Positions 1,792 through 17,084 of a stretch of 48,837 nucleotides of DNA are shown here, in pieces. Origin of the DNA: a virus; IMG/VR virus record IMGVR_UViG_3300030099_002099, positions 1 through 48,837 of that record. The stretch is one strand, 5' to 3'. A model generated the notes under the pieces. That model searched no databases, was not told where the DNA came from, and saw only the letters and a list, made by a program, of their open reading frames with translations. The position numbers and the translations under genes are program-made. Each line of letters starts with the position of its first letter. Position 1 is the first letter of the stretch.

Positions 1792-2760
1792 ATGGGATTA
1801 TTTGATAATAGAATAGCTTACAAACCTTTTGAATACCCCGAGTATTATACAGAAGGTTGGTTAAAACAAGCTCAAGCATTTTGGTTACATACTGAAATAC
1901 CTATGAGTGGAGATGTAAAAGATTGGAACGAAAAATTAACAGATGGAGAAAAAAACTTAGTAGGTAATATACTATTAGGTTTTGCTCAGACTGAGTGTGC
2001 AGTATCTGATTACTGGACTCAGAAAGTAGTATCATGGTTTCCTAAACACGAAATACAGCAGATGGCCATGATGTTTGGAAGTCAAGAGACAATACATGCT
2101 GTAGCTTATAGTTATTTAAATGAAACACTTGGACTTGAAGACTTTGAAGCGTTTTTACATGAGCCAGCTACGGCTGAGCGTTTTGATAATCTCGTTTCAT
2201 ATGATGGCACCGATCCTGTTGACATTGGTAGATCATTGGCTATTTTTAGTGCTTTTGCAGAAGGAGTATCTTTATACTCTGCTTTTGCAGTACTTTATAG
2301 CTTTCAGCTACGTAATTTACTCAAGGGTATTGGTCAACAAATGAAATGGTCGGTAAGAGACGAATCACTACATTCACGTATGGGATGTAGATTATTTAGA
2401 CATATGTGTGAAGAAAAGGATTTTCTTGCAGATACATGCAAACCACATATTATAGATGCAGCGCATGTTATGCATGATGCTGAAATGAAATATATAGATA
2501 AGATGTTTGAAGCTGGTGATATTGAAGGGTTGAAGTCTTATGATCTTAAACAGTTTATAAAGAAAAGACTAAATGAAAAGCTTGTGGAGCTCGGATATAA
2601 AGAACTCTCAAAAGAATTTAGCTACGACAAAGAAGCCGCGAAAAACTTGGATTGGTTTTATCATCTTACTGGTGGGCATACTCATACCGATTTTTTTGCT
2701 ATCAGGCCGACCGACTACAGCAAAGCAAATGAGGGAGAAGATTTCGAAAATATCTGGTAA
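1792..2760 (+). CDS. nrdB: Class I ribonucleotide reductase, beta (small) subunit
   Basis: A 322-residue ferritin-like subunit that generates the radical used to reduce ribonucleotides. The di-metal ligands are visible: E68, E99 with H102 (ExxH), E157, and E191 with H194 (second ExxH). Y106 lies seven residues after E99, the position of the radical tyrosine (Y122 in E. coli). The first ligand is Glu (E68) where E. coli has Asp, a common variant. The C-terminus ends FENIW, an acidic-aromatic tail of the kind that docks into the alpha subunit. It works with the nrdA product encoded 250 bases downstream, supplying dNDPs for phage DNA synthesis. ATG at 1792 follows the previous stop by three bases. 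Confidence 0.93.
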   Translation: MGLFDNRIAYKPFEYPEYYTEGWLKQAQAFWLHTEIPMSGDVKDWNEKLTDGEKNLVGNILLGFAQTECAVSDYWTQKVVSWFPKHEIQQMAMMFGSQETIHAVAYSYLNETLGLEDFEAFLHEPATAERFDNLVSYDGTDPVDIGRSLAIFSAFAEGVSLYSAFAVLYSFQLRNLLKGIGQQMKWSVRDESLHSRMGCRLFRHMCEEKDFLADTCKPHIIDAAHVMHDAEMKYIDKMFEAGDIEGLKSYDLKQFIKKRLNEKLVELGYKELSKEFSYDKEAAKNLDWFYHLTGGHTHTDFFAIRPTDYSKANEGEDFENIW

Positions 2761-3012
2761 ATGAATAGAGATATATTAAAATTACTGGTAAGAACTAGAA
2801 AGTTAACGCCAGGCGAAAGATTAGCTAGTAGAATAGGTTATTTTGGCGCAGGCTGTTTATTAGCAGCACATTGGACTTTAATACCTGGTCTATACATAGC
2901 TGGATTTTGTTGTATACTTATTCAAGTAGCAAGCAGAAAACAATGGAACTTAGTAGCATTAAACATAAATGGTTTAATAGCTTGGACAAAACACTTAATA
3001 ACAAATTTATAA
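2761..3012 (+). CDS. Small membrane protein between nrdB and nrdA
   Basis: An 83-residue protein whose ATG directly follows the nrdB stop and whose TAA overlaps the nrdA ATG by one base, so all three are translationally linked. The N-terminus is basic (MNRDILKLLVRTRKL); residues about 28-58 are hydrophobic (YFGAGCLLAAHWTLIPGLYI and on to FCCILIQVA) and could form two short membrane helices. No enzyme motif is seen. Its place inside the ribonucleotide reductase operon is odd for a membrane protein; it could anchor the complex or simply use the operon for timing. Confidence 0.65.
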   Translation: MNRDILKLLVRTRKLTPGERLASRIGYFGAGCLLAAHWTLIPGLYIAGFCCILIQVASRKQWNLVALNINGLIAWTKHLITNL

Positions 3013-4733
3013 TGTGGAGTAACAGATGGAAAAAAGGCGTTGATTACCCAGAGTGGGCAGACGCAGATGTTTATAAAAAAACTATAACTGGTGGTTATTT
3101 ATATAACGGCGAAACACCTAAAGAAGCATATGAACGTGTAGCTACTACTGTAGCAAGACGTTTAAAAAAGCCAGAAATGGCTGATATATTTTTTGATTAC
3201 ATATGGAAAGGCTGGTTGTGTCTAGCCTCTCCAGTGTTATCAAATACAGGAACTGAAAGAGGATTACCAATATCATGCTTTGGTATTGATGTTGCAGACA
3301 GTATATTAGATATAGGACAGAAAAACCTAGAGATGATGTTGCTGGCTAAACATGGTGGTGGAGTTGGTGTTGGTTTAAATATGATCAGACCTTCTGGTGC
3401 AGATATTACAATGAATGGTACTTCAGATGGTGTTGTACCTTTTTGTAAAATATATGACTCAACTATATTAGCTACAAATCAAGGAGCTGTACGTAGAGGA
3501 GCTGCATCAGTTAATTTAAATATAGATCACAAAGATTGGGAAGACTGGTTAGAAATAAGAGAACCTAAAGGTGATGTTAATAGACAATCATTAAACCTAC
3601 ATCAATGTACTATAATCGGTGATAAGTTTATGAGAAAACTTAGAGACGGTGACAAGGTTGCAAGACGTAAATGGGGTAAATTACTACAAAAACGTAAAGC
3701 AACTGGTGAACCTTATATAATGTACAAGGGTAATGTAAATAAAAATAACCCTTCATCTTATAAGGATAATGCTCTGAAAGTATTTATGACTAATATATGT
3801 TCAGAGATAGTATTACACACAGATGAAAACCATAGCTTCGTATGTTGTTTATCTAGTTTAAATCTAGCTAAATATCACGAGTGGAAAGACTCAAACTTAA
3901 TATATGATAGCGTATGGTTTTTAGACGGTGTATTAGAGGAATTTATACAAAAAGCAAAAAATAGAAGGGGATTTGAAAATGCTGTAAGATCTGCTGAAAA
4001 AGGCAGAGCGTTAGGTCTAGGAGTTTTAGGTTGGCATACATACTTACAACAGAAAGGATTACCATTCGAAGGATTATTAGCACAATATGAAACAAGAAGA
4101 ATTTTTAGTCAAATTAAAATTGAAAGCGAAAGAGCTAGTATGGCACTGGCGAGCGCTTATGGAGAACCTCTCTGGTGTGTTGGAACTGGTTTTCGTAATA
4201 CTCACCTACGGGCTATTGCTCCTACTGTTAGTAATAGCAAGCTTGCTGGCAATATTTCGCCGGGCATTGAGCCGTGGGCGGCTAACGTCTTTACAGACCA
4301 AAGTGCAAAAGGAACTTTCATCAGAAAAAACCCTACACTTGTAAATATATTAGAAAAACATAAGTTAAACACAGATAAAATATGGGATCAAATTTTAGCA
4401 GACGGTGGTTCAATACAAGGTATCAAACAATTAGAGAAAATTACGTTGGGAGATCACGACATACCAATCAAAGAAGTATTCAAAACTTTCAAGGAAATAA
4501 ATCAGCTAGAGCTTGTTAATCAAGCTGGTATAAGACAACAGTATATAGATCAAGCTGTTAGCTTAAACTTAGCTTTTCCTTCACAAGCAGATCCTAAATG
4601 GATTAATAAAGTTCATTTAGAGGCTTGGAAAAAAGGTATTAAAACTTTGTATTATATGCGTACTGAGTCAGTACTAAGAGGAGATATAGCTGAACAAGCT
4701 ATGAGTGAAGACTGTATGAGTTGTGACGGGTAG
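3012..4733 (+). CDS. nrdA: Class I ribonucleotide reductase, alpha (catalytic) subunit
   Basis: The ATG at 3012 overlaps the upstream TAA (TAATG). The open frame extends back to 2871, but that stretch lies over the previous gene. The product is 573 residues, shorter than typical bacterial NrdA, and begins at the catalytic core with no ATP-cone domain. Visible active-site elements are C89 in PISCF (E. coli C225), N261-I-C263-S-E265 (N437, C439 thiyl, E441), C278 in VCCLSSLNL (C462), Y547-Y548 in LYYMRT (Y730/Y731 of the radical path), and a C-terminal C568-M-S-C571 thiol shuttle. It reduces ribonucleoside diphosphates with NrdB. It closes the + strand block; its stop lies in a terminator loop. 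Confidence 0.93.
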   Translation: MWSNRWKKGVDYPEWADADVYKKTITGGYLYNGETPKEAYERVATTVARRLKKPEMADIFFDYIWKGWLCLASPVLSNTGTERGLPISCFGIDVADSILDIGQKNLEMMLLAKHGGGVGVGLNMIRPSGADITMNGTSDGVVPFCKIYDSTILATNQGAVRRGAASVNLNIDHKDWEDWLEIREPKGDVNRQSLNLHQCTIIGDKFMRKLRDGDKVARRKWGKLLQKRKATGEPYIMYKGNVNKNNPSSYKDNALKVFMTNICSEIVLHTDENHSFVCCLSSLNLAKYHEWKDSNLIYDSVWFLDGVLEEFIQKAKNRRGFENAVRSAEKGRALGLGVLGWHTYLQQKGLPFEGLLAQYETRRIFSQIKIESERASMALASAYGEPLWCVGTGFRNTHLRAIAPTVSNSKLAGNISPGIEPWAANVFTDQSAKGTFIRKNPTLVNILEKHKLNTDKIWDQILADGGSIQGIKQLEKITLGDHDIPIKEVFKTFKEINQLELVNQAGIRQQYIDQAVSLNLAFPSQADPKWINKVHLEAWKKGIKTLYYMRTESVLRGDIAEQAMSEDCMSCDG

Positions 4734-5741: not shown

Positions 5742-6182
5742 TTAATTTTTTCTAGGATTAACTGGTGTTGGAGGTGGTGTTACTACCGATCCTTGTGGTT
5801 TGATTGTGGGCGTTGTAATATTTGGCGTATTGTTATTATTGTTATAATTAATATTGCTATTGCCATTATATATAGGTTTAGGTGGATTATACAAACGCGG
5901 GTGATAATATGGTTTATCCCATCTAGTGTAATAACCACTATAAGGTCTGTACCAATCATATCCCACTACATTATATATTACATTTGGTTTTATATCTTTA
6001 ATAGGTATTTTTAACGTATCACCTTCTTCTGTTAAAGCTAATACGTGTGTTACTTTTGGTCCTTTACTTTGATAATAATATGGTGAACAAGCGTATATAC
6101 ATAACATAAAAACTATAGTAACAAAAACTAAAAAAGCTTTTGTTATAGCTGAATCATATTGTTTTATATCATACTTACTCAT
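5742..6182 (-). CDS. Lipoprotein-like or membrane-anchored Pro/Asn-rich protein; o-spanin candidate
   Basis: A 146-residue protein with a short polar N-terminus, a hydrophobic stretch at about residues 15-31 (AFLVFVTIVFMLCIY) and an immediate AC-SPYYY sequence that could be a loose lipobox (I-Y-A-C). The rest is predicted exposed: a Tyr/Pro-rich part, an Asn run (NYNNNNNTPN) and a Pro-rich tail (VVTPPPTPVNPRKN). Small Pro-rich outer-membrane lipoproteins are typical of o-spanins such as Rz1. It overlaps the peptidase gene upstream by four bases, which fits a lysis cassette. It could also be a plain inner-membrane protein, since Tyr at -2 is unusual for a lipobox. Confidence 0.5.
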   Translation of the reverse strand: MSKYDIKQYDSAITKAFLVFVTIVFMLCIYACSPYYYQSKGPKVTHVLALTEEGDTLKIPIKDIKPNVIYNVVGYDWYRPYSGYYTRWDKPYYHPRLYNPPKPIYNGNSNINYNNNNNTPNITTPTIKPQGSVVTPPPTPVNPRKN

Positions 6183-6643
6183 ATTACCATATATTTTGTT
6201 TTGTTATTATCATCTTTATAAGCTTTTAAACATCTATTTCTATTTGATGCTTTATCTACATAACTCACATGTACCCAATTAGGATTTTCATCTGTACCAA
6301 ACTCCCATATCATCTGATCATAATCTAAATTAGCTTTAATCCAATTAAACATTTCTGCGTTAGACGCATGACCATAAGTATCATCAATATCAATAGCTTG
6401 TCCGTGACAATGTTGTGACTTTGCAGATCCACCAATAGCTTTGTTAAGTTGAGGTCCACGGTAAAACGAATTGATCTTTATAGGACCACCTACGTGTATT
6501 CTAAGAGGCTCAAATATATTTTCGGCAACATTTATCATATTTAATAAATGATCATCAGAGGGATCATTTTTTAAACCAAGCCTTTCCGCTGTTCTGCTAT
6601 ACACACCTTCACGATAACTTACGTGTTTACTTATTTTATCCAT
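6179..6643 (-). CDS. M15 family zinc peptidase, probable endolysin
   Basis: A 154-residue protein with the peptidase M15A / D-Ala-D-Ala carboxypeptidase-like signature SxHxxGxAxD at residues 76-85 (SQHCHGQAID; zinc ligands H78 and D85), a downstream Glu in MIWEFG, and the third ligand H125 in WVHVS. SFYRG just before the motif is also typical of the family. Such enzymes cut peptide bonds in peptidoglycan stems and serve as phage endolysins. There is no signal peptide, so release would need a holin or other membrane lesion. It overlaps the PAP2 gene by eight bases and is followed by the spanin-like gene. The enzyme family is firm; the lysis role is inferred from size and context. Confidence 0.85.
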   Translation of the reverse strand: MDKISKHVSYREGVYSRTAERLGLKNDPSDDHLLNMINVAENIFEPLRIHVGGPIKINSFYRGPQLNKAIGGSAKSQHCHGQAIDIDDTYGHASNAEMFNWIKANLDYDQMIWEFGTDENPNWVHVSYVDKASNRNRCLKAYKDDNNKTKYMVI

Positions 6644-7190
6644 TTAATTTATTTTTAATATGATTAAACATATCATTTCCTATCTTTTCGCCAAGATCAG
6701 AGTCAGATTTAAAATGAGCTTTACCTATACGCCTACTCATTGATATATCCATGCCTTCTTTTTCGAAGTCAGCTTTGTGTTTAGGATATAGTTTACCTAA
6801 AGCTTTACCTATAGCAACTCCTTGTACAGAGTGACCTGAAGGATATGAAGGCGTCTTCATTGAATCCATAGGTATATCTTTTAGTTTAATACCAAAACCA
6901 CCTGCTAAATGCTTAGGCCTTGGTCTTCCAAAATGTTTTTTTAGCTTTAATATTTTTGGTGCACTTTCAGCTATTATACTATTAACTAGTTTTTTAGGAT
7001 ATGGTACACCGTTTTTAGCAGCTACTTTTTTAAAAGCTGATTGAATATTGTCCTTATCCTTAACAAACTTAGGATCGTCTCTTAAAGCGTTAATTTCTTT
7101 TATTTCTTTTAACGTTGTCAAGGAGTTGTTTGATGGTGGAGTCATTTTTTTATAAACATCCATATCAAATCCAGACAATAAACCTTTCAT
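6636..7190 (-). CDS. PAP2-superfamily acid phosphatase
   Basis: The 184-residue protein carries all three PAP2 phosphatase motifs in order: K-x6-RP (in KLKKHFGRPRP), PSGH (in PSYPSGHS), and SR-x5-H-x3-D (SRRIGKAHFKSD). The two His and the conserved Arg form the phospho-His active site. There are no multiple membrane helices as in lipid phosphatases, and no clear signal peptide, so it looks like the soluble class A acid phosphatase type. Its ATG overlaps the stop of the upstream 46-aa gene, and it overlaps the M15 peptidase gene. Possible substrates are nucleotides, lipid A or undecaprenyl phosphates, or polyphosphate; the sequence cannot tell which. Confidence 0.82.
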   Translation of the reverse strand: MKGLLSGFDMDVYKKMTPPSNNSLTTLKEIKEINALRDDPKFVKDKDNIQSAFKKVAAKNGVPYPKKLVNSIIAESAPKILKLKKHFGRPRPKHLAGGFGIKLKDIPMDSMKTPSYPSGHSVQGVAIGKALGKLYPKHKADFEKEGMDISMSRRIGKAHFKSDSDLGEKIGNDMFNHIKNKLNG

Positions 7191-7330
7191 TACTCTTTTA
7201 TTATCTTTTCAATTTTTTTAGCTTTAGCTTTTATTTCAGCTGCTTTAGCTAAAACTATATCGTCTACCGTAGTTTTACTCCATAGGTAAGTCCATACATC
7301 TATGAAGTATTGTTTAGTTAATTTCCACAT
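7190..7330 (-). CDS. Small Trp-rich/Lys-rich protein (46 aa)
   Basis: An ATG at 7330 (- strand) opens a 46-codon frame ending in a TAA that overlaps the PAP2 ATG (TAATG), a coupling arrangement also used by many other gene pairs here. The N-terminus is aromatic (MWKLTKQYFIDVWTYLW) and the C-terminus is a basic, heptad-like helix (AKAAEIKAKAKKIEKIIKE). This amphipathic pattern suits a peripheral membrane peptide or a small coiled coil. It fills the hole between the thioredoxin-like and PAP2 genes. I do not recognise the family; the coupling makes it likely real. Confidence 0.6.
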   Translation of the reverse strand: MWKLTKQYFIDVWTYLWSKTTVDDIVLAKAAEIKAKAKKIEKIIKE

Positions 7331-7332
7331 AA

Positions 7333-7368
7333 TTATTTACATATACATATTGGGCAAAATGGGCACAT
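7333..7368 (-). CDS. Possible 11-residue Cys-rich leader or micropeptide (MCPFCPICICK)
   Basis: Between the thioredoxin-like gene and the 46-aa gene lies one tiny frame, ATG 7368 to TAA 7333. Four of its eleven residues are cysteine, in two CP repeats. It begins four bases after the upstream stop and ends two bases before the next ATG, exactly filling the gap. It may be a real micropeptide, a translational coupler, or chance; in 36 bases, chance cannot be excluded from one sequence. Confidence 0.25.
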   Translation of the reverse strand: MCPFCPICICK

Positions 7369-7372
7369 AATA

Positions 7373-7783
7373 TTAAAATTTAGAAGCCTTATTAGCCTCG
7401 TTGATTGATTCTTGAATTTCTTCTAGGTCTGCGGGTAATTCAAGATCTAACCCCGCTTTAAATACTGTTTCTTTTATACCACCTTTAAATATAATAATTG
7501 TAGGTGCCATACGTACCTTGTATTTCTTTTTTGCTTCTGGTGCTTTAGATATATCAACTCTGTAATAAACTGCATCTTCTAATTTATCCCAATCAGGAAA
7601 ACAATTAACTTCGTTAAACTTAGCCCAGAACTCTACAACAATTGGCAGTGATTGATCATCTCCAAACGCGTTGTGTTCTTTTATTTTATCCTCAAAATTA
7701 CTATCATCTATCCAGTACTCATCCGGTACGTCTTGTTGACTAAATGATATTAATGGTATTAAAAGTAAAATTAAATATTTCAT
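7373..7783 (-). CDS. Exported thioredoxin-fold protein lacking the CxxC active site
   Basis: A 136-residue protein with an N-terminal signal peptide (MKYLILLLIPLISFSQ, with a Q at the likely mature start, as in Bacteroidetes). The mature part has thioredoxin landmarks: PIVVEFWA at residues 47-54 and the cis-Pro loop RMAPTIIIFKGG with P94. Where thioredoxins have WCGPC, this protein has FNEVNC (N57-E58-V59-N60, then C61). The dithiol is lost and only one Cys remains. It cannot be an ordinary disulfide reductase; a chaperone, binding or mixed-disulfide role is possible. Its start overlaps the stop of the upstream coiled-coil gene by one base, in a run of envelope genes. Confidence 0.72.
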   Translation of the reverse strand: MKYLILLLIPLISFSQQDVPDEYWIDDSNFEDKIKEHNAFGDDQSLPIVVEFWAKFNEVNCFPDWDKLEDAVYYRVDISKAPEAKKKYKVRMAPTIIIFKGGIKETVFKAGLDLELPADLEEIQESINEANKASKF

Positions 7784-8103
7784 TATTTATTTTTTTGTAT
7801 TTCATATAGCCTTTCGTCTATTTTATCTAATTGATCTTTAATATCTTGCACATCTTCTTGAGTATCTATTATTGTCTGACGTATCAACTCGTCTTTTAAA
7901 TCATACTCAACTCTATCAATAACAGGGGCTGGTAATTCTTTAGCGAGAGCTATATCTTGTTTTAAACTAAACCAAACACCAGCTAAAGATATTATAGCAA
8001 ATATAATAGCGCCAATTGTTTTTAAGGATATTTTAAAATCTGATTTACCATCTCCGTCTATATCAATACCCATAGAGGTATTTTCATCTAATTGTTTTGT
8101 CAT
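7783..8103 (-). CDS. Single-pass membrane protein with coiled coil; i-spanin-like candidate
   Basis: A 106-residue protein. Residues 14-22 read DIDGDGKSD, a DxDxDG calcium-loop-like pattern on the N-terminal side. One hydrophobic helix follows (about 29-46, TIGAIIFAIISLAGVWFS), then a long charged helical tail with coiled-coil character (DTQEDVQDIKDQLDKIDER). An inner-membrane anchor with a coiled coil reaching into the periplasm is the plan of i-spanins, and a Pro-rich lipoprotein-like partner lies downstream at 5742. It also resembles membrane-anchored phage accessory proteins of unknown role. It sits between the barrel-like protein (2-base gap) and the thioredoxin-like gene (1-base overlap). 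Confidence 0.5.
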   Translation of the reverse strand: MTKQLDENTSMGIDIDGDGKSDFKISLKTIGAIIFAIISLAGVWFSLKQDIALAKELPAPVIDRVEYDLKDELIRQTIIDTQEDVQDIKDQLDKIDERLYEIQKNK

Positions 8104-8105
8104 GA

Positions 8106-9293
8106 TTATCTAAATGTAAAATTAATTCCAAAGTTTGAGTTAAACATTTCTGAGTCCCAGAATTTAGTATATTCGCCTTCAACAAACAAACCGATTGATT
8201 TGCTAACTTTAACACCAAGTACTAAACCAGCTTGATAGTCACTCCATTGATCTCCATTACCACTCATATGATTCATATTGTGGCCTTGTTCGCTCCAACC
8301 GTTTCTATGTAGATAACTATATTGCTCGTCACCTTTTACATATTTGTGATATGGTAATATCCAGCTGCCATAAGCATGAAGCCAAAAATTATTTTTATAG
8401 TGATAAAAATCCATACCTACTATAGGTGCAATCTCAGCAAAAGGATCTAGCTCAGACCATGCTTCTTGATTAAATCTATTTAATAATCTAGGCATTATAA
8501 GATCTCTAAACTGTTGATCAGTATAAGCTACAATAACTCCTTGATCATTAACCCAATACCAGTCATATATATAATTACCATACTCATCTGTTGATGAATA
8601 ATATATATCATCATATCCATATTCAAAACCTAATGTATACCATGGGTTTGCTGCGTTACCGTCTTCGTCCATTTCATTTAACCATATTTCTACGGGATTA
8701 TAACCATAAGGACGTTCATGTGTCCTATATATTGCACCCGCAGATATACTAAATTTCTTGCCAATAGGTAACCTGGCTCTTAATTCACCAGAAATATATT
8801 TAAAATCTATTTTACCAGTTTCTCTAGCTTCAAACTTAGCTATATGGTAATCACCAGTGTGTCTTACAAATAATCTTTTATTATCAAACTCCCTACCATT
8901 ATGTCTTTCTTTTTCCCAATGCAATAAATATTCTAAACCTTGTACAGCTGATGTAGGCGCTGATAAACCAACTTGTTTTTCTACTTTATTGTTACCTGTC
9001 CAAAAATTACCCGGCTTTACTTCGTAATCAAATCTAGCTAATTTACGTATACCTAAACCATATCTATAATTAAATGGATGGTATTGAGCTCTATCTTCTA
9101 CTTGAGGTATGCCGTAAAAATCATCGGGGTTTGTACGTATGAAGTAGTTCGGTTGTACTGCTTGTGCGTTTTCTATATTACCAGCAGCATAGAACGTACC
9201 GTACTTAAGGAAGTCTTTGTATATTTCTTTCAAGAACTGTGCTTGAACATTGCTAGATATTAGCAATGCTATAATCAATAATAGTTTTTTCAT
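8106..9293 (-). CDS. Secreted, putative outer-membrane beta-barrel protein
   Basis: A 395-residue protein with a clear signal peptide (MKKLLLIIALLISSNVQAQ, cut after AQ). The mature chain is rich in Tyr, Trp and Phe with alternating polar/aromatic strands and turns of Asp/Asn/Gly. Examples are YISGELRARLPIGKKFSISA and the final SIGLFVEGEYTKFW and NFGINFTFR. Strand alternation and an aromatic C-terminal strand fit a host-type outer-membrane barrel of about 12-18 strands. No enzyme motif is seen. A phage-encoded outer-membrane protein could block superinfection, alter permeability, or belong to the lysis programme. It is downstream of the giant internal protein and starts the envelope gene run. 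An exported soluble beta-protein is the alternative. Confidence 0.6.
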   Translation of the reverse strand: MKKLLLIIALLISSNVQAQFLKEIYKDFLKYGTFYAAGNIENAQAVQPNYFIRTNPDDFYGIPQVEDRAQYHPFNYRYGLGIRKLARFDYEVKPGNFWTGNNKVEKQVGLSAPTSAVQGLEYLLHWEKERHNGREFDNKRLFVRHTGDYHIAKFEARETGKIDFKYISGELRARLPIGKKFSISAGAIYRTHERPYGYNPVEIWLNEMDEDGNAANPWYTLGFEYGYDDIYYSSTDEYGNYIYDWYWVNDQGVIVAYTDQQFRDLIMPRLLNRFNQEAWSELDPFAEIAPIVGMDFYHYKNNFWLHAYGSWILPYHKYVKGDEQYSYLHRNGWSEQGHNMNHMSGNGDQWSDYQAGLVLGVKVSKSIGLFVEGEYTKFWDSEMFNSNFGINFTFR

Positions 9294-9329: not shown

Positions 9330-12300
9330 TTACTTTTTCTTAATTCTTTTTTTCTTTATAACTTTCTTGTTACTAGTCTTTTTACTCTTCTTTTTGTTTT
9401 TATTTCTTTTCTTAAGCTCTTCTACATCATAATTTTCAACACCAACATCCCAAGTACTCCAACCTAGCAGTGTAGCTATTCTTTGCCAAGCAGCGTTTCT
9501 TTCATCTAAAGAAGCTCTTACATTATTTATTTTTCTAAATAATCTATCTAACGGTAGGTTTGTTACACCTGATACTACATTACCAACCATTTCATAAGCT
9601 GGATTACCTAAACCAGGACCATACTCTAACATTATATCTTTGTTAAACTTATAAGTTTGTATTGCAGAATATAGTTTTCTTAACTTACTGCCAATTGGCG
9701 GTGATAAATTTAATGCTTCAATTATAGTGTATGTATGATCTCCAGTCCAACCTTTCTTTTCTTGTTCTATAAACTTTATTATAGTATTTTTAACTGTAGA
9801 CACAACAGCTCCGTATAAACCAGAACCTCTTAATATAGTGTCCATCATACCATTAGCTATTCTTTGTGATTTTTTATCAAGGTTTAACTCTTCTTCTTCT
9901 TCGTCATTAGCAAACATAAATCCAAACAAAGCGTTTTGCAACGAAGCAAATACAAAGTTTTGAACTGCACCATAATATAATATCTTACTTATATTTGTTT
10001 TAGCATCACCTCTACCGGCTATTAAATCTCTCATAGCTTTTTTAGTTAACCTCATATACTGCATAGGTGTATTTTGGAAAGCAAGTATGATTCTACCTAA
10101 TGGTCCAGCTTGTTGAGCAGATATTAAATCAGGTCTACTAGACTGTTGAGCTTTTTCTGATGCCTCTGCAAAATCTTCAAAAGCCTGTGCTTCTGCTTCT
10201 GCTTTAGACATACCTTGTTTCATTAAGTCTTTTATTCTGTTTCTATAGAAACTAGCACCACCTATAGCAATAGCAAAACTATCTGCTATTTGAGTAGGTG
10301 TAAAACCTATTTTTAATAAGTATGCTAATACCGCGCTAGCTTTATTTTTAGCTCCAGCCGCAGCGTTAGCAATTTCAGCTTCATTGACATCTGTTTGTAA
10401 ACCTCTACGTCTTTGTTTTAACATTGGTGAGTTAAATATAAACGCAAAGTCTGACCAGAATTGTTTTTGATTAGCAAAAGCTTTAGCTGCATTTAAAGGA
10501 TTATTGTAACTCCAGTTTATAAAGTTTACAGAAGATATTGTTTGTAATATTGCTGATCTCATGTTAAAGAACATTATAGCACCAACAGAGTTATTAACCC
10601 AATTTAACCAAGCATTTATTGTTCTATTTCTACCAAAGTTTCTGTTAGTACCATTTTCCATACGGTATAACATGTCTTGTAAAGCTTCAACATAAGCATC
10701 ACCGTATATAGCTCTTAGTTTATTTAGATTTTTTTGTGAAAATATAATGTTTTTCTTTTCAATAAACTCTTTTAAATATTCTTTTCTTTTAACTTTATCA
10801 ACAGCATCATTCATATCAGAAGCTGTACTACCAGCTATCCAATGTTCAGCTGGTGGTGGGTAACCTTCTTTAAGTCTAGTAATTTTTTGTAGTACATCTG
10901 CAAAAGTTCTTAGATCATCATTTTTAGCAACTAGATTAGCTAAAGCTTGTTGATCTGTTTTAGATATACCAGGTATTTCAATACCTAATTTCGTCCATAT
11001 ATAAACTCTTATTGCTTGGTCAAATGTATAATCTTTATAACCACTCTTTTTACCTAATATCTTTTTAACTTGAGGCATTTGTTTTTTCAAGTTTCTAAAG
11101 TCTTCAGCTATTTTTTGTTTAGCTATATTTATAGCAGCTATAGCTCTTGAAAAAGGTTTCATTAAATGTCTATTAAAAAAGTCTAATTGAGCTTCACCTC
11201 TTTTACCTTTAGCAAGTAAATCATATAGTAACCCAACAAAATCTTCAGCACCTGGTGGTAAAAAATATTTCCACTTAGATCTTACTTTAGAACCTCTTCT
11301 AGCCGATTCAACATTTGAAAACTCTTTAAACGCTTCAACACCAGACTCTTCTTCTATTATTTTATTAAATTCAAAGTCTATATCTTCCATAGAAGCTTTT
11401 GCTTGTTGTACGTCTGATTTAACATCAACAACATCTAAAGCATCTTGTACCGCTTTTACATTTTTATACGCGTCATCAGCAAAATAAAAATCATTATAAC
11501 CTTCAGCTGCTTTACTTATAATCCAATCAGCTTTTGCTTGAGGTCTACCATCTTCTAAACCTGTAATATTTTCAATAGGTATTTCTAAACCTATACCTTT
11601 TAAGAAAGCATGTATTGCATATGCAGCTTCTTGTGGTCTAGCTGTTAATACAAATATATCTTTACTTCCAAACTTATCTTGTCTTTTTAATGCTAGATCT
11701 GCTAGTGGCCCTTTCTTACCATCAATAACTTTATTAAATTCACTAAAATCAAACTTAGCTCCAGCCGCTTCTAAATCAGCAGATTCTTTAGCAAACCTAG
11801 TAGCATCTATTTTCATAGTTTTACCATCTGGCATTGTAACTAGTATTTTACTATTTGTTTTTGCTAATGTGTCATCAAAATCAAATACACTTATGCCTTT
11901 TCTAGGTGCGTCAGTTCTTCTAGCGTTATTTAAAGCATCTTCTTTTAAACTAAACTTTTTGTTTTTTTCTACGTTTTTATTTACTTCTTGTCTTAATTTT
12001 ATATTTTTTTCTCTTTGTTTTATTAAAGTTTCTGCTGGTTTTAAATCAAAAGTAAATACGTTAGCTTGATCAGCTTTAGGTAGTAATCTTATTCTTAAGT
12101 CTTTGAAAGGATTATTTCTACCAAACACATCAACTAAATCTAGTAAAGATTTACTTTCTAACCATTGATCATGATACTCAAGTATGTCATCAAGTTTGCT
12201 ATCAAGTGTAGTATCATCTAAATTTTGAAAACGTAATTCTAATAAATCAAACATAGAAGTAGCGTTATCAGCTAAATGCTCACCTTTCATAGGGCCTTGT

Positions 12301-15300
12301 GGTCCTTCTTTTATTGTTATATATTTTAAACCTGTTAAAGATCTAAAGCCTTTCACAGCATTAGTTTGCATCTGTAACATGTTTATAAAATTAGCATCTG
12401 ATATTTCAGACTTAACTAATTTTTTCATCAAGTATTTAGCTAATATTTTATTATGCACATTAGCATCTGCTATCTCTTGTTCTAGCTTTGCTATTAGTTC
12501 TAATTTTTCAGCTTTACTATCAAGCTCTAATATTTTATTTATCTTAGCCATTAAACCTATTTTAGAGTTCATAGGTCTAACTTTACTTAAGTCTAAATCA
12601 GGTGGCAAGTCATTATTATCTTTTATCTTAGCTTTTATATCTTCAAGAGCTTGATAAAACTCACCTGGTTGACCAGTTGCTTTTTTATTTTTAGCAGGAT
12701 CTAATACTCTATTTATAAAGCCTAATCCATCATAACCTATTACATCTAGAACATTAGCGCCAAAATCCATAGCCAACATAGCCATATCACCAGCAAAGCT
12801 TTGTTTTAAATCTGCATTTGATTTTTTAGTTAAGGCTTTTTTAACTTGTGCTTTTACCTCTGGTGGTATTACTTTTGAATTTTTTACTAGCTTTAAAAAT
12901 CTATAAGTTTCTAATGGTTGTATCAAACCTTCATTGTAAGCATTTCTAACTATCGATGCCATAGCGTTTGTAAACTTATTTGCTAGTCTAGAAACTATAG
13001 TACCATCTTCATTTGTAACATTATCAACACCTTCTTTTATAGCAAGATTAGCTAATTTACCAGTCATGCTTATACCTTTGTCACTTAGTGAAAACTTTTT
13101 ATTTGGATCTCTATTTATTTGTTTAGCAGTTTCTTCAATATAGTTATCTACTTGTTCTACACCTGTAATATCATCTATAGCTTTTCTTTTTTCTAAAACC
13201 TCAGGATCTTTAACAACTTCCATAGTAGCATCAAAAGCAAGCTCTTCTGCTAACGCCTCAGCTAAAGCATCTTTTCTAGTACCTTTTGTAGATGGCTTAA
13301 CATCTTTACCTATAAAATACGATAACCACTCTGATCTACTTATTTTTCTTTTTGTGAATATACCTTTACCAGAAGCATCACCTGTTTCAGCAAATTTTTC
13401 TCTCATCGGTTTACCGTTCTCATCTAGTACTGGTTCCGCAAACTGATTAAATCTTTTGTTTATTATTTCTTGAGATAGAGCTGAGTATATAGCTTCAAAG
13501 TTATCTCTTAAAAACTGTTCCTTAATAGCTCTAGTACCTATTAAGTTGGCCATTGCTGTTTTTAATTCTACTCTAAAAGATTTTTGTAATTCTTTTTTAA
13601 ATTGCTTACTAGTTACTTTAGGTAATCTAGCTCCAAATGTTTTTATAACAGCTGCTTTTATTCTATTATACAAAGGACCTCCTGTTTCAATACCTAACTG
13701 TTCTCTTAATGATGGTTGCTCTTCAACTTGTGGTTGTTCAACTTGTGTATCTTCTGCAGTTATATTTCTAGCTTCAGTAACATCTGTAGTAAATTGTTTA
13801 CCAAATATTCTATCAGCAACTTCTATAGCTCTACTAGATATAAAACTATTTATATAAGCAGCTAAAGGCACACCAGATGTTGGATCGTATTTTAATACCA
13901 TCTCATAAACACCTCTTTTACCAGTTAGTAACTCGTTTACAAAATCATCTTTAAATTCTTTAAACCCAGGTACATCTCTATATTTTTGAGCTATCTTTTC
14001 AGCCATACCTCTATATAGCTCTGTTATTTCAAAAGCACCATCAATACCTTTTTTGTTATATATATCTTGTACTTGATCACTTAAGTTTTCAGCTCTAGAA
14101 GATTTGTTTACCGTCTCTCTTATTTGATCTGTTTTTTCTTTTATTAGTTTACCCTCAGCACCCTCTCTAGCTACAGTAGTAATACCTTTACCAAGCTTAC
14201 CTTTAAGTATACCGTGATTATAATCTTTTATAAAGTTATATACATCTCTACCCGTGTTAAATTTAACTTTAACACCAGCAGCTTGTAATACTCTTCTAAA
14301 CACATCAGCTAGTTTAGTAAATACATTTTCATTAAAAACAATATCACCAGTATTTATAGCATCAGAAAATAGTGTTAATACTTCTTCTGCAGCATTAGCA
14401 GAACTATATTCACCAGCGTTAACAGCATCTTGGTATTGTTTTAATCTAGCTGCAAATTTACTATTTTGTACTTTTGTAGGATTTATTTTCATTAAATACT
14501 CTTGTAATGATTTACCAAGAGCTTTTTGAGTTTCAGGATTATTTTTTACAGACTCAAATAATATAGCATGTAAAAATTCATGGGCAGCTACATTTGTAGC
14601 GCCTTGCTTAGCAGAAGCATCTCTATTTATAATTATAGTTTGAGTGCCATCAGGGTTTTGTAGTATAGTACCTTGATTTTTTGCTTCTTTTTGTAACTCA
14701 GCTAAACTTTGTTTTTTATTTTGAGGTTTTTTATCGTTCTCTCTTTTTAGTATCTCTAAAACCTCTGCTTCATTTTCAGCTGATTCAATAGTAACATCAC
14801 CTTGAAATATTCTTTCAGCTTCTTTTTTTACAGTATCTATTTGTTGGTCTATTTCTTTAGCAACATAAGGCGCTAACACCTCACCTCTTTGTTGATCTAT
14901 TTTATTATACTGATCTTTTAACCTATCTAGTTCTGATTTCTTTTGTTCTTTTGATAAAGACTTGTCAGCATTTATATCATTAGCTTTATTTACTAGATCA
15001 GCTTTATCTTTTTCTATTTTTAGTATTTGAGTTTTTTCTTCTGGTGTTAACTCATCTAATCTTTTTATATCTTTAAGTATAAGATCATTATTCTGAGCAA
15101 CTAAATCTTCTAGCTCTTCTCTATATTTAACTCTTAGATTACTACTTAAATCTGGATTAGTTAAAAATGTTTTTAACTCTTGTATTCTTTTAGCATTTAA
15201 AAATACAGACTGTTTACTTTCATTAGTTCTAAAACCATTCATTAGATTTAAACCAAACACCGGTGATTTATATACAACACCTGACATCCATAAACCACTA

Positions 15301-17084
15301 AAAAATGATTCAGTTACACCATCTAATATGTTTACATCTTCTTTACCTAAAACATATTTGTCAGCCATGTTACCAGCTACTTGTGAAAGACCTTCAGTGA
15401 AACCTTCTTCAATAGGATCATATATGTTTTGCCCTAAACCTCTTTTAGTTGCAAAGTTTCTTTTTAAATAATTAACAAAACCAGATTTTACTTGATTTTT
15501 AGCTCCTCTACTAATACCTTTAACAGCTCCCTTAACTTTGTTTAATTGACCTAACGTTACTCTTTCTGATAAAGCTTCAGCTAAACCTGTTGTTGTAGCT
15601 GCTAAATACATTTGACCCGGAGTATATTGAACACCATACATCTCCATTTCTTTTTGCATGTCTTTAAATTTAGCTCCAGCTGAAGTAGCACCTAATATAG
15701 GTAGAGCATATGAGCCAGTTGTAAGCATAACAACTGTATTTGGTAGTTGAGTTGCTGTTGTTTGCGAAGCCCACTCACCAAAAGTTTCCCAGTCTTTTAT
15801 ATCACCAAATGCTTGAGGTGGTTCTAAACCGTTCCTCATATCTTCTGACCAGTCTCTCCATATAAAATCTAAAGCATCTTCACGTAAACCATCTCTCCAA
15901 GCCGCAAGTTTATACACGGGTTCAAATATACCTAAACTTTTATCTTCATCACCCGCTTTATAACTATCAGCTATAGCTAAAAATATAGCACCTGGATCTG
16001 TATATTTGTATACAGCTTCTCCAACATTATCTACTAGATCACCAGCGGCTAATGTTAGGTTGCCAAAAAAGTTTGTTATCTCATTATAGTTTCTACCATA
16101 AGCATCTACAAAATTTCTTAAATCTTCTTCATTATCACCAATGAGATCTGCTTGTTGTTGTATATGTAAAATGCTAGCTAGATGTTTTTCACCTTGAGTT
16201 TTTAGTGATTGAACTAGCGTTTGAAGTTGTTCGTATTCTTCTTTTGTTTGAGGTGTTTTATCTTTTATAGCATCAAACTGCTCTTGTATTTTTGTTATTT
16301 CGTTAGCGTGATAGTTGTATCTAAGCATGTTATTTTTAGTAACTTCTTCAACTCTTTCTAATGATTCTAGTGCTGCATCTCTTTCATCTAATTGTTTATC
16401 ACCTCTCCATAACTGCCACCAAGATCTATCATCTTCTATTATTTCTTCTGTATTTTCGTAAAAAGATTGATTTGCTAAATCTTCTCTAAATCTATTTTTG
16501 TTATTTTCTGTAGCTTCAGCTATTTGTTCTTCGCTTAAGTCTTCTACTTTTACTTTATCTCTTTCAGCTATTATTTCTTTTTCAACTTCAAGCAATTTTT
16601 GTTGGTCTAATAAATCTTGCTCTTGATTAGTTATAACCCTGTCATTATCTTCAATATCTAATCCAGGTGAAGTAAATGAGTCTTTATTTTCTAGCCAGTT
16701 TAAAAACTTCATATAATAGTAACCTGTACCACCTTTAATTTTTCTACCTATTTCAGTGTTATTTAATATATAGTAAGAACCAGGAGCTGTTGTTATTATT
16801 GGTATGTTTTCATGTATTTTAGAATAATCATCTATTGAGATCTTACCTTCAGGAACTTCGTAGTTAGCCATATCTTCTGCTTTTTGATCGTTGGCTATTT
16901 TTTGCTCTTCAGTTTCATTAGTTGACTCTACATCTATAGAAACCTCTGTAGCTTTTTCTATATCTTCATCTAAGTAACTCTCAACCTCATACGGTATTGC
17001 ATCAGGGTGGGCTTGTAAAAATTCTTCAAGACGGTGTTCAGCTACATCATACCTTTGACCATCTGATATGTATATTTTACCCAT
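9330..17084 (-). CDS. Giant internal virion / polyvalent protein with HExxH and HAD-like domains
   Basis: A 2584-residue protein, the largest here. It follows gp14- and gp15-like genes, the position of T7 gp16. N-terminus: short beta motif (GKIYISDGQRYDV) then FLQAHPDA. Residues about 450-620 are Gly/Ala-rich, with EEGFTEGLSQVAG. A zinc-protease motif HEFLH lies at 835-839. A HAD phosphatase-like domain starts at 1735 with DFDDT (D1735, D1737), then VLTARP near 1812 and FADDAYKN near 1870. The last 600 residues contain motifs I associate with large phage internal proteins (NPLNAAKAFANQKQFW; RRRGLQTDVNEAE) and hydrophobic helices. The C-terminus is a Lys run. It may be ejected into the host with DNA and act there. 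No lytic transglycosylase motif was recognised. Confidence 0.75.
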   Translation of the reverse strand: MGKIYISDGQRYDVAEHRLEEFLQAHPDAIPYEVESYLDEDIEKATEVSIDVESTNETEEQKIANDQKAEDMANYEVPEGKISIDDYSKIHENIPIITTAPGSYYILNNTEIGRKIKGGTGYYYMKFLNWLENKDSFTSPGLDIEDNDRVITNQEQDLLDQQKLLEVEKEIIAERDKVKVEDLSEEQIAEATENNKNRFREDLANQSFYENTEEIIEDDRSWWQLWRGDKQLDERDAALESLERVEEVTKNNMLRYNYHANEITKIQEQFDAIKDKTPQTKEEYEQLQTLVQSLKTQGEKHLASILHIQQQADLIGDNEEDLRNFVDAYGRNYNEITNFFGNLTLAAGDLVDNVGEAVYKYTDPGAIFLAIADSYKAGDEDKSLGIFEPVYKLAAWRDGLREDALDFIWRDWSEDMRNGLEPPQAFGDIKDWETFGEWASQTTATQLPNTVVMLTTGSYALPILGATSAGAKFKDMQKEMEMYGVQYTPGQMYLAATTTGLAEALSERVTLGQLNKVKGAVKGISRGAKNQVKSGFVNYLKRNFATKRGLGQNIYDPIEEGFTEGLSQVAGNMADKYVLGKEDVNILDGVTESFFSGLWMSGVVYKSPVFGLNLMNGFRTNESKQSVFLNAKRIQELKTFLTNPDLSSNLRVKYREELEDLVAQNNDLILKDIKRLDELTPEEKTQILKIEKDKADLVNKANDINADKSLSKEQKKSELDRLKDQYNKIDQQRGEVLAPYVAKEIDQQIDTVKKEAERIFQGDVTIESAENEAEVLEILKRENDKKPQNKKQSLAELQKEAKNQGTILQNPDGTQTIIINRDASAKQGATNVAAHEFLHAILFESVKNNPETQKALGKSLQEYLMKINPTKVQNSKFAARLKQYQDAVNAGEYSSANAAEEVLTLFSDAINTGDIVFNENVFTKLADVFRRVLQAAGVKVKFNTGRDVYNFIKDYNHGILKGKLGKGITTVAREGAEGKLIKEKTDQIRETVNKSSRAENLSDQVQDIYNKKGIDGAFEITELYRGMAEKIAQKYRDVPGFKEFKDDFVNELLTGKRGVYEMVLKYDPTSGVPLAAYINSFISSRAIEVADRIFGKQFTTDVTEARNITAEDTQVEQPQVEEQPSLREQLGIETGGPLYNRIKAAVIKTFGARLPKVTSKQFKKELQKSFRVELKTAMANLIGTRAIKEQFLRDNFEAIYSALSQEIINKRFNQFAEPVLDENGKPMREKFAETGDASGKGIFTKRKISRSEWLSYFIGKDVKPSTKGTRKDALAEALAEELAFDATMEVVKDPEVLEKRKAIDDITGVEQVDNYIEETAKQINRDPNKKFSLSDKGISMTGKLANLAIKEGVDNVTNEDGTIVSRLANKFTNAMASIVRNAYNEGLIQPLETYRFLKLVKNSKVIPPEVKAQVKKALTKKSNADLKQSFAGDMAMLAMDFGANVLDVIGYDGLGFINRVLDPAKNKKATGQPGEFYQALEDIKAKIKDNNDLPPDLDLSKVRPMNSKIGLMAKINKILELDSKAEKLELIAKLEQEIADANVHNKILAKYLMKKLVKSEISDANFINMLQMQTNAVKGFRSLTGLKYITIKEGPQGPMKGEHLADNATSMFDLLELRFQNLDDTTLDSKLDDILEYHDQWLESKSLLDLVDVFGRNNPFKDLRIRLLPKADQANVFTFDLKPAETLIKQREKNIKLRQEVNKNVEKNKKFSLKEDALNNARRTDAPRKGISVFDFDDTLAKTNSKILVTMPDGKTMKIDATRFAKESADLEAAGAKFDFSEFNKVIDGKKGPLADLALKRQDKFGSKDIFVLTARPQEAAYAIHAFLKGIGLEIPIENITGLEDGRPQAKADWIISKAAEGYNDFYFADDAYKNVKAVQDALDVVDVKSDVQQAKASMEDIDFEFNKIIEEESGVEAFKEFSNVESARRGSKVRSKWKYFLPPGAEDFVGLLYDLLAKGKRGEAQLDFFNRHLMKPFSRAIAAINIAKQKIAEDFRNLKKQMPQVKKILGKKSGYKDYTFDQAIRVYIWTKLGIEIPGISKTDQQALANLVAKNDDLRTFADVLQKITRLKEGYPPPAEHWIAGSTASDMNDAVDKVKRKEYLKEFIEKKNIIFSQKNLNKLRAIYGDAYVEALQDMLYRMENGTNRNFGRNRTINAWLNWVNNSVGAIMFFNMRSAILQTISSVNFINWSYNNPLNAAKAFANQKQFWSDFAFIFNSPMLKQRRRGLQTDVNEAEIANAAAGAKNKASAVLAYLLKIGFTPTQIADSFAIAIGGASFYRNRIKDLMKQGMSKAEAEAQAFEDFAEASEKAQQSSRPDLISAQQAGPLGRIILAFQNTPMQYMRLTKKAMRDLIAGRGDAKTNISKILYYGAVQNFVFASLQNALFGFMFANDEEEEELNLDKKSQRIANGMMDTILRGSGLYGAVVSTVKNTIIKFIEQEKKGWTGDHTYTIIEALNLSPPIGSKLRKLYSAIQTYKFNKDIMLEYGPGLGNPAYEMVGNVVSGVTNLPLDRLFRKINNVRASLDERNAAWQRIATLLGWSTWDVGVENYDVEELKKRNKNKKKSKKTSNKKVIKKKRIKKK

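Follow-up and report, generated by a model that had tools for sequence, protein, structure and literature searches.

In a 48,837-nucleotide stretch of viral DNA (IMG/VR record IMGVR_UViG_3300030099_002099, positions 1 to 48,837; hereafter the window, a 48.8-kb fragment of a phage genome), the minus-strand genes at 6179–9293 are best read as a late lysis/envelope module of marine phages rather than as a general envelope-modification operon. The module would combine an i-spanin-like coiled-coil protein (CC) with a thioredoxin-fold protein (TRX) and a β-barrel (BARREL) on the periplasmic and outer-membrane side, a reading to which we give about an even chance. The source is probably an uncultured podovirus-like phage of a flavobacterium, as judged from large-terminase identities of 46% to Flavobacterium elemo phages and 37–39% to the Cellulophaga phi38:1 group. 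A reading made from the sequence alone had described a closely packed, in places overlapping run with two signal peptides, one membrane helix, PAP2 motifs, and an M15 peptidase, and we read the genes the same way; it overlooked an 11-codon gene that is the most novel element of the module. The features are as follows.

5742–6182, minus strand: LIPO, lipoprotein with an IYA-C lipobox and a Pro/Asn-rich tail; o-spanin-like; optional
6179–6643, minus strand: M15 peptidase, endolysin (PF08291, phrog_894 endolysin)
6636–7190, minus strand: PAP2-like soluble phosphatase (predicted); net charge +17; accessory
7190–7330, minus strand: SMALL, 46-aa Trp-rich protein with a net charge of +4
7333–7368, minus strand: Cys4 micropeptide MCPFCPICICK, 11 codons plus stop, between TRX and SMALL
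7373–7783, minus strand: TRX, exported thioredoxin-fold protein with CGPC replaced by N-x-x-N and then a single Cys
7783–8103, minus strand: CC, 106-aa inner-membrane protein with one transmembrane (TM) helix at 29–47 and a coiled-coil-like C terminus; i-spanin-like
8106–9293, minus strand: BARREL, exported 395-aa protein with a signal peptide and a predicted 12-strand outer-membrane β-barrel with long outer loops
9330–17084, minus strand: BIG, 2584-aa late protein upstream of BARREL

Conservation and linkage to the endolysin

Scanning viral contigs with BARREL yielded 39 loci, and of 294 relatives from a TRX profile scan 80 were kept. Among 64 distinct barrel loci with sufficient flank—from mutually related phages, so that the counts are not independent—CC and TRX were present in all 64, M15 in 62, SMALL in 36, LIPO in 22, and PAP2 in nine. 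The sequence-only reading had named a gene order not shared by relatives as grounds for refuting its proposal; gene set and order do recur, and the proposal was not overturned on this point. We regard the retention of the four-gene set in a distant clade (L183–L189; barrel identity 34–39%) as more telling than counts among related loci: M15, CC, TRX, and BARREL are all kept there in a different order, with no lipoprotein candidate nearby. At two other loci (L036 and L095), CC–TRX pairs flank BARREL on both sides.

The comparison with sister phages separates the behavior of CC from that of BARREL and TRX. In ten records with a related BIG gene, several of them fragments, neither BARREL, TRX, nor the M15 gene of the window had a match, and CC was matched in seven of the ten. 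Six sister regions were read: CC overlaps an amidase gene in four (L276, L277, L278, and L280), assigned to Amidase_2 by Pfam in all three cases tested, and in a further sister (L041) a DUF5675 protein directly follows CC. CC accompanies three different cell-wall-enzyme candidates, and the presence of BARREL and TRX follows that of M15. The position of CC beside an endolysin candidate of whichever type, together with this tracking of M15 by BARREL and TRX, leads to the lysis reading and gives no support to the earlier suggestion of roles outside lysis for the additional members.

The endolysin assignment is firm in profile searches (PF08291, 51.5 bits against a cut-off of 23.2; phrog_894 endolysin, 2.6e-29). 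Genes gp100 and gp101 of phi38:1, at matching positions, are annotated as structural; gp101 is the positional counterpart of BIG, which itself has no match in Pfam, and this marks the module as late. The elemo and phi38:1-group phages (Pervagoviridae) share the virion gene order of the window, and in those of their records that were searched the profiles of barrel, TRX, and CC matched nothing.

The PAP2-like product carries all three motifs (K-x6-RP, PSGH, and SR-x5-H-x3-D) and scored 25.3 bits on PF01569, narrowly under the cut-off of 27.2; at sequence level it is PAP2-like by motifs and not a confirmed superfamily member. Like M15, it has neither a signal nor a membrane helix, and in other sister phages PAP2 adjoins BIG without BARREL. 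We rejected it as a core envelope member, given its presence in nine of 64 loci and its lack of a signal or TM helix. The description of the run as envelope proteins thus stands for a conserved envelope-directed set and lacks support for this predicted soluble enzyme. PAP2 and SMALL, a short, Trp-rich, basic protein that begins MWKLTKQYFIDVWTYLW and for which a disruptin-like action on membranes is conceivable, are accessories. Beyond LIPO lie three small Lys/Arg-rich proteins, and ribonucleotide reductase small- and large-chain genes (1792–4733, plus strand) converge on the module.

Predicted structures of BARREL, TRX, and CC

BARREL had no match in Pfam, PHROG, or PDB sequences. AF2 models built from 31 and 41 sequences (pLDDT 67.5 and 70.5) both contain 12 antiparallel strands. 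In VIA-align, the first model matched Tsx (Z 14.8), KdgM (Z 13.8), and NanC (Z 13.6), and the second CymA (Z 11.8) and EspP (Z 11.5). Foldseek and VIA-align matches were outer-membrane barrels almost throughout, in line with the putative barrel of the sequence-only reading; they include OMPLA, an enzymatic barrel (Z 11.1). Together with a signal peptide, an even strand count, and the C terminus INFTFR, the models predict with fair confidence that the 8106–9293 product is an outer-membrane β-barrel; as modeled, the structural matches back the fold and give no function.

BARREL and TRX carry short Bacteroidetes-type signal peptides (MKKLLLIIALLISSNVQAQ and MKYLILLLIPLISFSQ, respectively), and N-terminal export signals are retained in every aligned member of both families (31 BARREL and 32 TRX sequences). 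Mean column identity across the barrel alignment is 72%. The outer loops are not hypervariable (mean conservation 0.61–0.67, against 0.76 for strands), and with a median identity to the window of 77%, compared with 61% for CC, the barrel ranks with the more slowly evolving genes here. Bearing on a host origin, a scan of genome contigs found seven barrel loci, each on a short or phage-sized metagenome contig. The best BFVD match was A0A516LKJ4 (21% identity, E 2e-23). Lambda Lom and the BFVD "outer membrane protein" entries from uncultured Caudovirales are likewise phage-coded outer-membrane barrels; unlike them, the barrel here is a core lysis-linked gene, not a lysogeny passenger.

TRX has the thioredoxin fold (PF00085, 28.0 bits against a cut-off of 23.5; PDB profile matches at 1.7e-6) and a MAPT cis-Pro region. 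The exported, dithiol-less character ascribed to it earlier is borne out: across 32 aligned members the CxxC site is replaced by N-x-x-N, with N57 and N60 invariant and a single Cys after them in nearly all, and distant members lack the remaining Cys as well (FNSANNY). A redox or disulfide role was rejected on these grounds. TRX shares fold and cis-Pro region with thioredoxin and differs from it by NxxN for CGPC, by export, and by its pairing with CC; it may serve as an adaptor. Downstream of TRX, some relatives (L018, L023–L025, L032, L144, and L162) encode a further short exported protein, possibly YfiM-like, that carries a DKxxHFAAG motif and had no Pfam match in its L144 version; in several of these loci its signal peptide and the micropeptide overlap.

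CC has one membrane helix (Kyte–Doolittle 2.17 at 29–47) and a heptad-like C terminus, suggesting a coiled coil and a predicted N-in/C-out topology; neither it nor LIPO reached a Pfam cut-off. In some relatives another CC gene, divergent in sequence, lies beside the first (L008:9179–9487, L053:8455–8757, and others). A separate GTA_holin_3TM scored above cut-off in three relatives that bear the cassette (G001–G003) and was not detected in the 48.8-kb window; CC need therefore not be the holin, is unlikely to be the only one, and fits an i-spanin.

This anatomy resembles that of two-component spanins such as lambda Rz/Rz1. As described in the part of PMC6139136 available to us, the i-spanin Rz has coiled coils and an N-in/C-out topology, and the o-spanin is an outer-membrane lipoprotein; CC likewise has one TM helix and a putative periplasmic-type coiled coil, LIPO is a candidate outer-membrane lipoprotein, and both lie beside the endolysin. 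The difference lies in the partners: LIPO is optional here, since 24 of 53 barrel loci have a lipoprotein candidate no more than about 4 kb away, whereas the companions that stay constant, a 12-strand barrel and a thioredoxin-fold protein, are not described for spanins in that part of PMC6139136. The same part reports no spanin in 91 of 677 surveyed phages, and among the flavobacterial phages of PMC8776804 only some have a spanin annotation. BARREL and TRX may replace or assist an o-spanin.

A four-cysteine micropeptide within the module

The gene at 7333–7368 was missing from open reading frame (ORF) lists because of its short length. Relatives carry versions in the same slot between TRX and SMALL (MCPFCEICICK, MCPICNGYCGLC, MCELCGGHCGLC, MCDFNCPFCTGC, and others), and at least one four-cysteine micropeptide ORF per module occurs in 34 of 50 TRX loci that were recruited without a micropeptide pattern. 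A pattern search of 20 records found mostly one plausible copy each, two in L075 and L175, and no in-frame copy in the elemo phage. Some sister phages have another type of reductase gene at the reductase position, with a standalone micropeptide just after it. Three apparently unrelated phage contigs (L063, L072, and L091) encode MCE[YC]CGGGCGGC, preceded by an AGGAGG-like site, and L091 has a TM/coiled-coil protein farther downstream.

Across 32 distinct 12-mers, variation is 0.40 at third codon positions, against 0.22 and 0.17 at the others, which contradicts an origin as a decayed signal peptide. Chance was also rejected: first-order random sequence gives 1–6 ORFs per 637 kb, compared with 54 observed in loci that were partly pattern-selected. 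We treat the micropeptide as a small gene in its own right inside the module. Metal binding and cysteine-codon sensing are guesses at its role. As a separate observation, the DUF5675 protein next to CC in L041 (6574–7041) ends in CCTECNCTCK, like a fused micropeptide tail, the sole such tail in the loci.

A scan for the MENCPxC form returned 85 contigs, 82 with module relatives nearby. Most copies sit 8 nt into LIPO, in another frame and within the signal peptide, and others are nested inside the signal peptide of BARREL or of a third exported protein; 56 distinct nested sequences were collected. Because the pattern itself requires cysteine codons, the fair test is confined to five nested sequences from the barrel and TRX scans. 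The cysteine frame is kept in all five, and codon 7 is GTC or GCC in each, although the late genes of the window use GTC for 2% of Val and GCC for 5% of Ala; codon 6 is ATT (21%) and codon 8 CTT (12%). Codon choice in these sequences contradicts a mere shadow of the signal peptide. In this small sample of related sequences, it appears to be forced by the cysteine frame, pointing to selection.

Mechanism, competing readings, and significance

On the lysis/envelope reading, M15 would cut peptidoglycan after the action of a holin, encoded elsewhere in relatives. CC would be anchored in the inner membrane with its coiled coil in the periplasm, TRX would act as an exported non-redox thioredoxin-fold adaptor, and the barrel would sit in the outer membrane. 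After the wall has been cut, both membranes would be linked by CC, TRX, and the barrel, joined by the lipoprotein in some phages, and the outer membrane would be broken or opened, the task of spanins elsewhere. Gene content, export signals, the barrel fold, the loss of CxxC, and the linkage to the endolysin come from sequence or prediction; the orientation of the members, their assembly into a complex, and the disruption of the outer membrane are inferred. Several points weigh against it. Many phages that have no barrel lyse Gram-negative cells, and linkage to an endolysin is equally expected of any late-operon passenger. Matches of CC to spanin or holin PHROGs came from only one or two CC members, at E 0.04–0.07. 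The better barrel model is of moderate quality (pLDDT 70.5), and no homologues were found in cultured phages, either of TRX or, by tblastn with three barrel queries, of BARREL.

The barrel could instead act in superinfection exclusion or receptor masking: placed in the outer membrane of the host and assisted by TRX and CC, it would keep out other phages or prevent progeny from re-adsorbing to debris. Outer-membrane proteins are known to be encoded by other phages, among them lambda (Lom) and T5 (Llp), and the predicted barrel has long outer loops; yet those loops are fairly conserved and the barrel evolves slowly, whereas an arms race at the cell surface should bring diversification, and its late position and its absence from sisters together with M15 leave this account fairly unlikely. 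An ordinary lysis cassette would need only M15, CC as i-spanin or holin, and LIPO as o-spanin; an auxiliary porin and a chaperone-like protein would then be unrelated passengers of the late operon. CC and LIPO alone do match two-component spanin anatomy, as given in the available part of PMC6139136. We nevertheless consider such an arrangement unlikely, since BARREL and TRX are the invariant companions while a lipoprotein candidate is found at fewer than half of the loci, and the distant clade retains the first two with no candidate for the third nearby. That BARREL and TRX directly follow BIG, whose phi38:1 counterpart is structural, might suggest virion-associated proteins of entry or ejection; the N-terminal export signals kept throughout are hard to reconcile with assembly into virions in the cytoplasm, and make this highly improbable.

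A stronger form of the lysis/envelope reading, which we put forward tentatively and regard as doubtful in its entirety, has two parts. One is an undescribed machine for outer-membrane rupture, in which a barrel, a thioredoxin-fold adaptor, and an inner-membrane coiled coil replace or stand beside an o-spanin. The other is an undescribed family of 11–14-residue four-cysteine micropeptides, translated, selected, and in many phages encoded out of frame where the exported proteins of the module have their signal peptides. Our literature search, which did not cover the main catalogue of phage small genes, found no known barrel-type lysis protein or cysteine micropeptide.

To our knowledge, little is known of how Bacteroidota phages cross the outer membrane at lysis, and a barrel inherited with one type of endolysin offers a testable alternative to spanins for that step. 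The Cys4 micropeptide, if translated, would represent a gene class that lies under the usual limits of gene callers and a clear case of overprinting, in which the same DNA yields a signal peptide and a cysteine-rich peptide.

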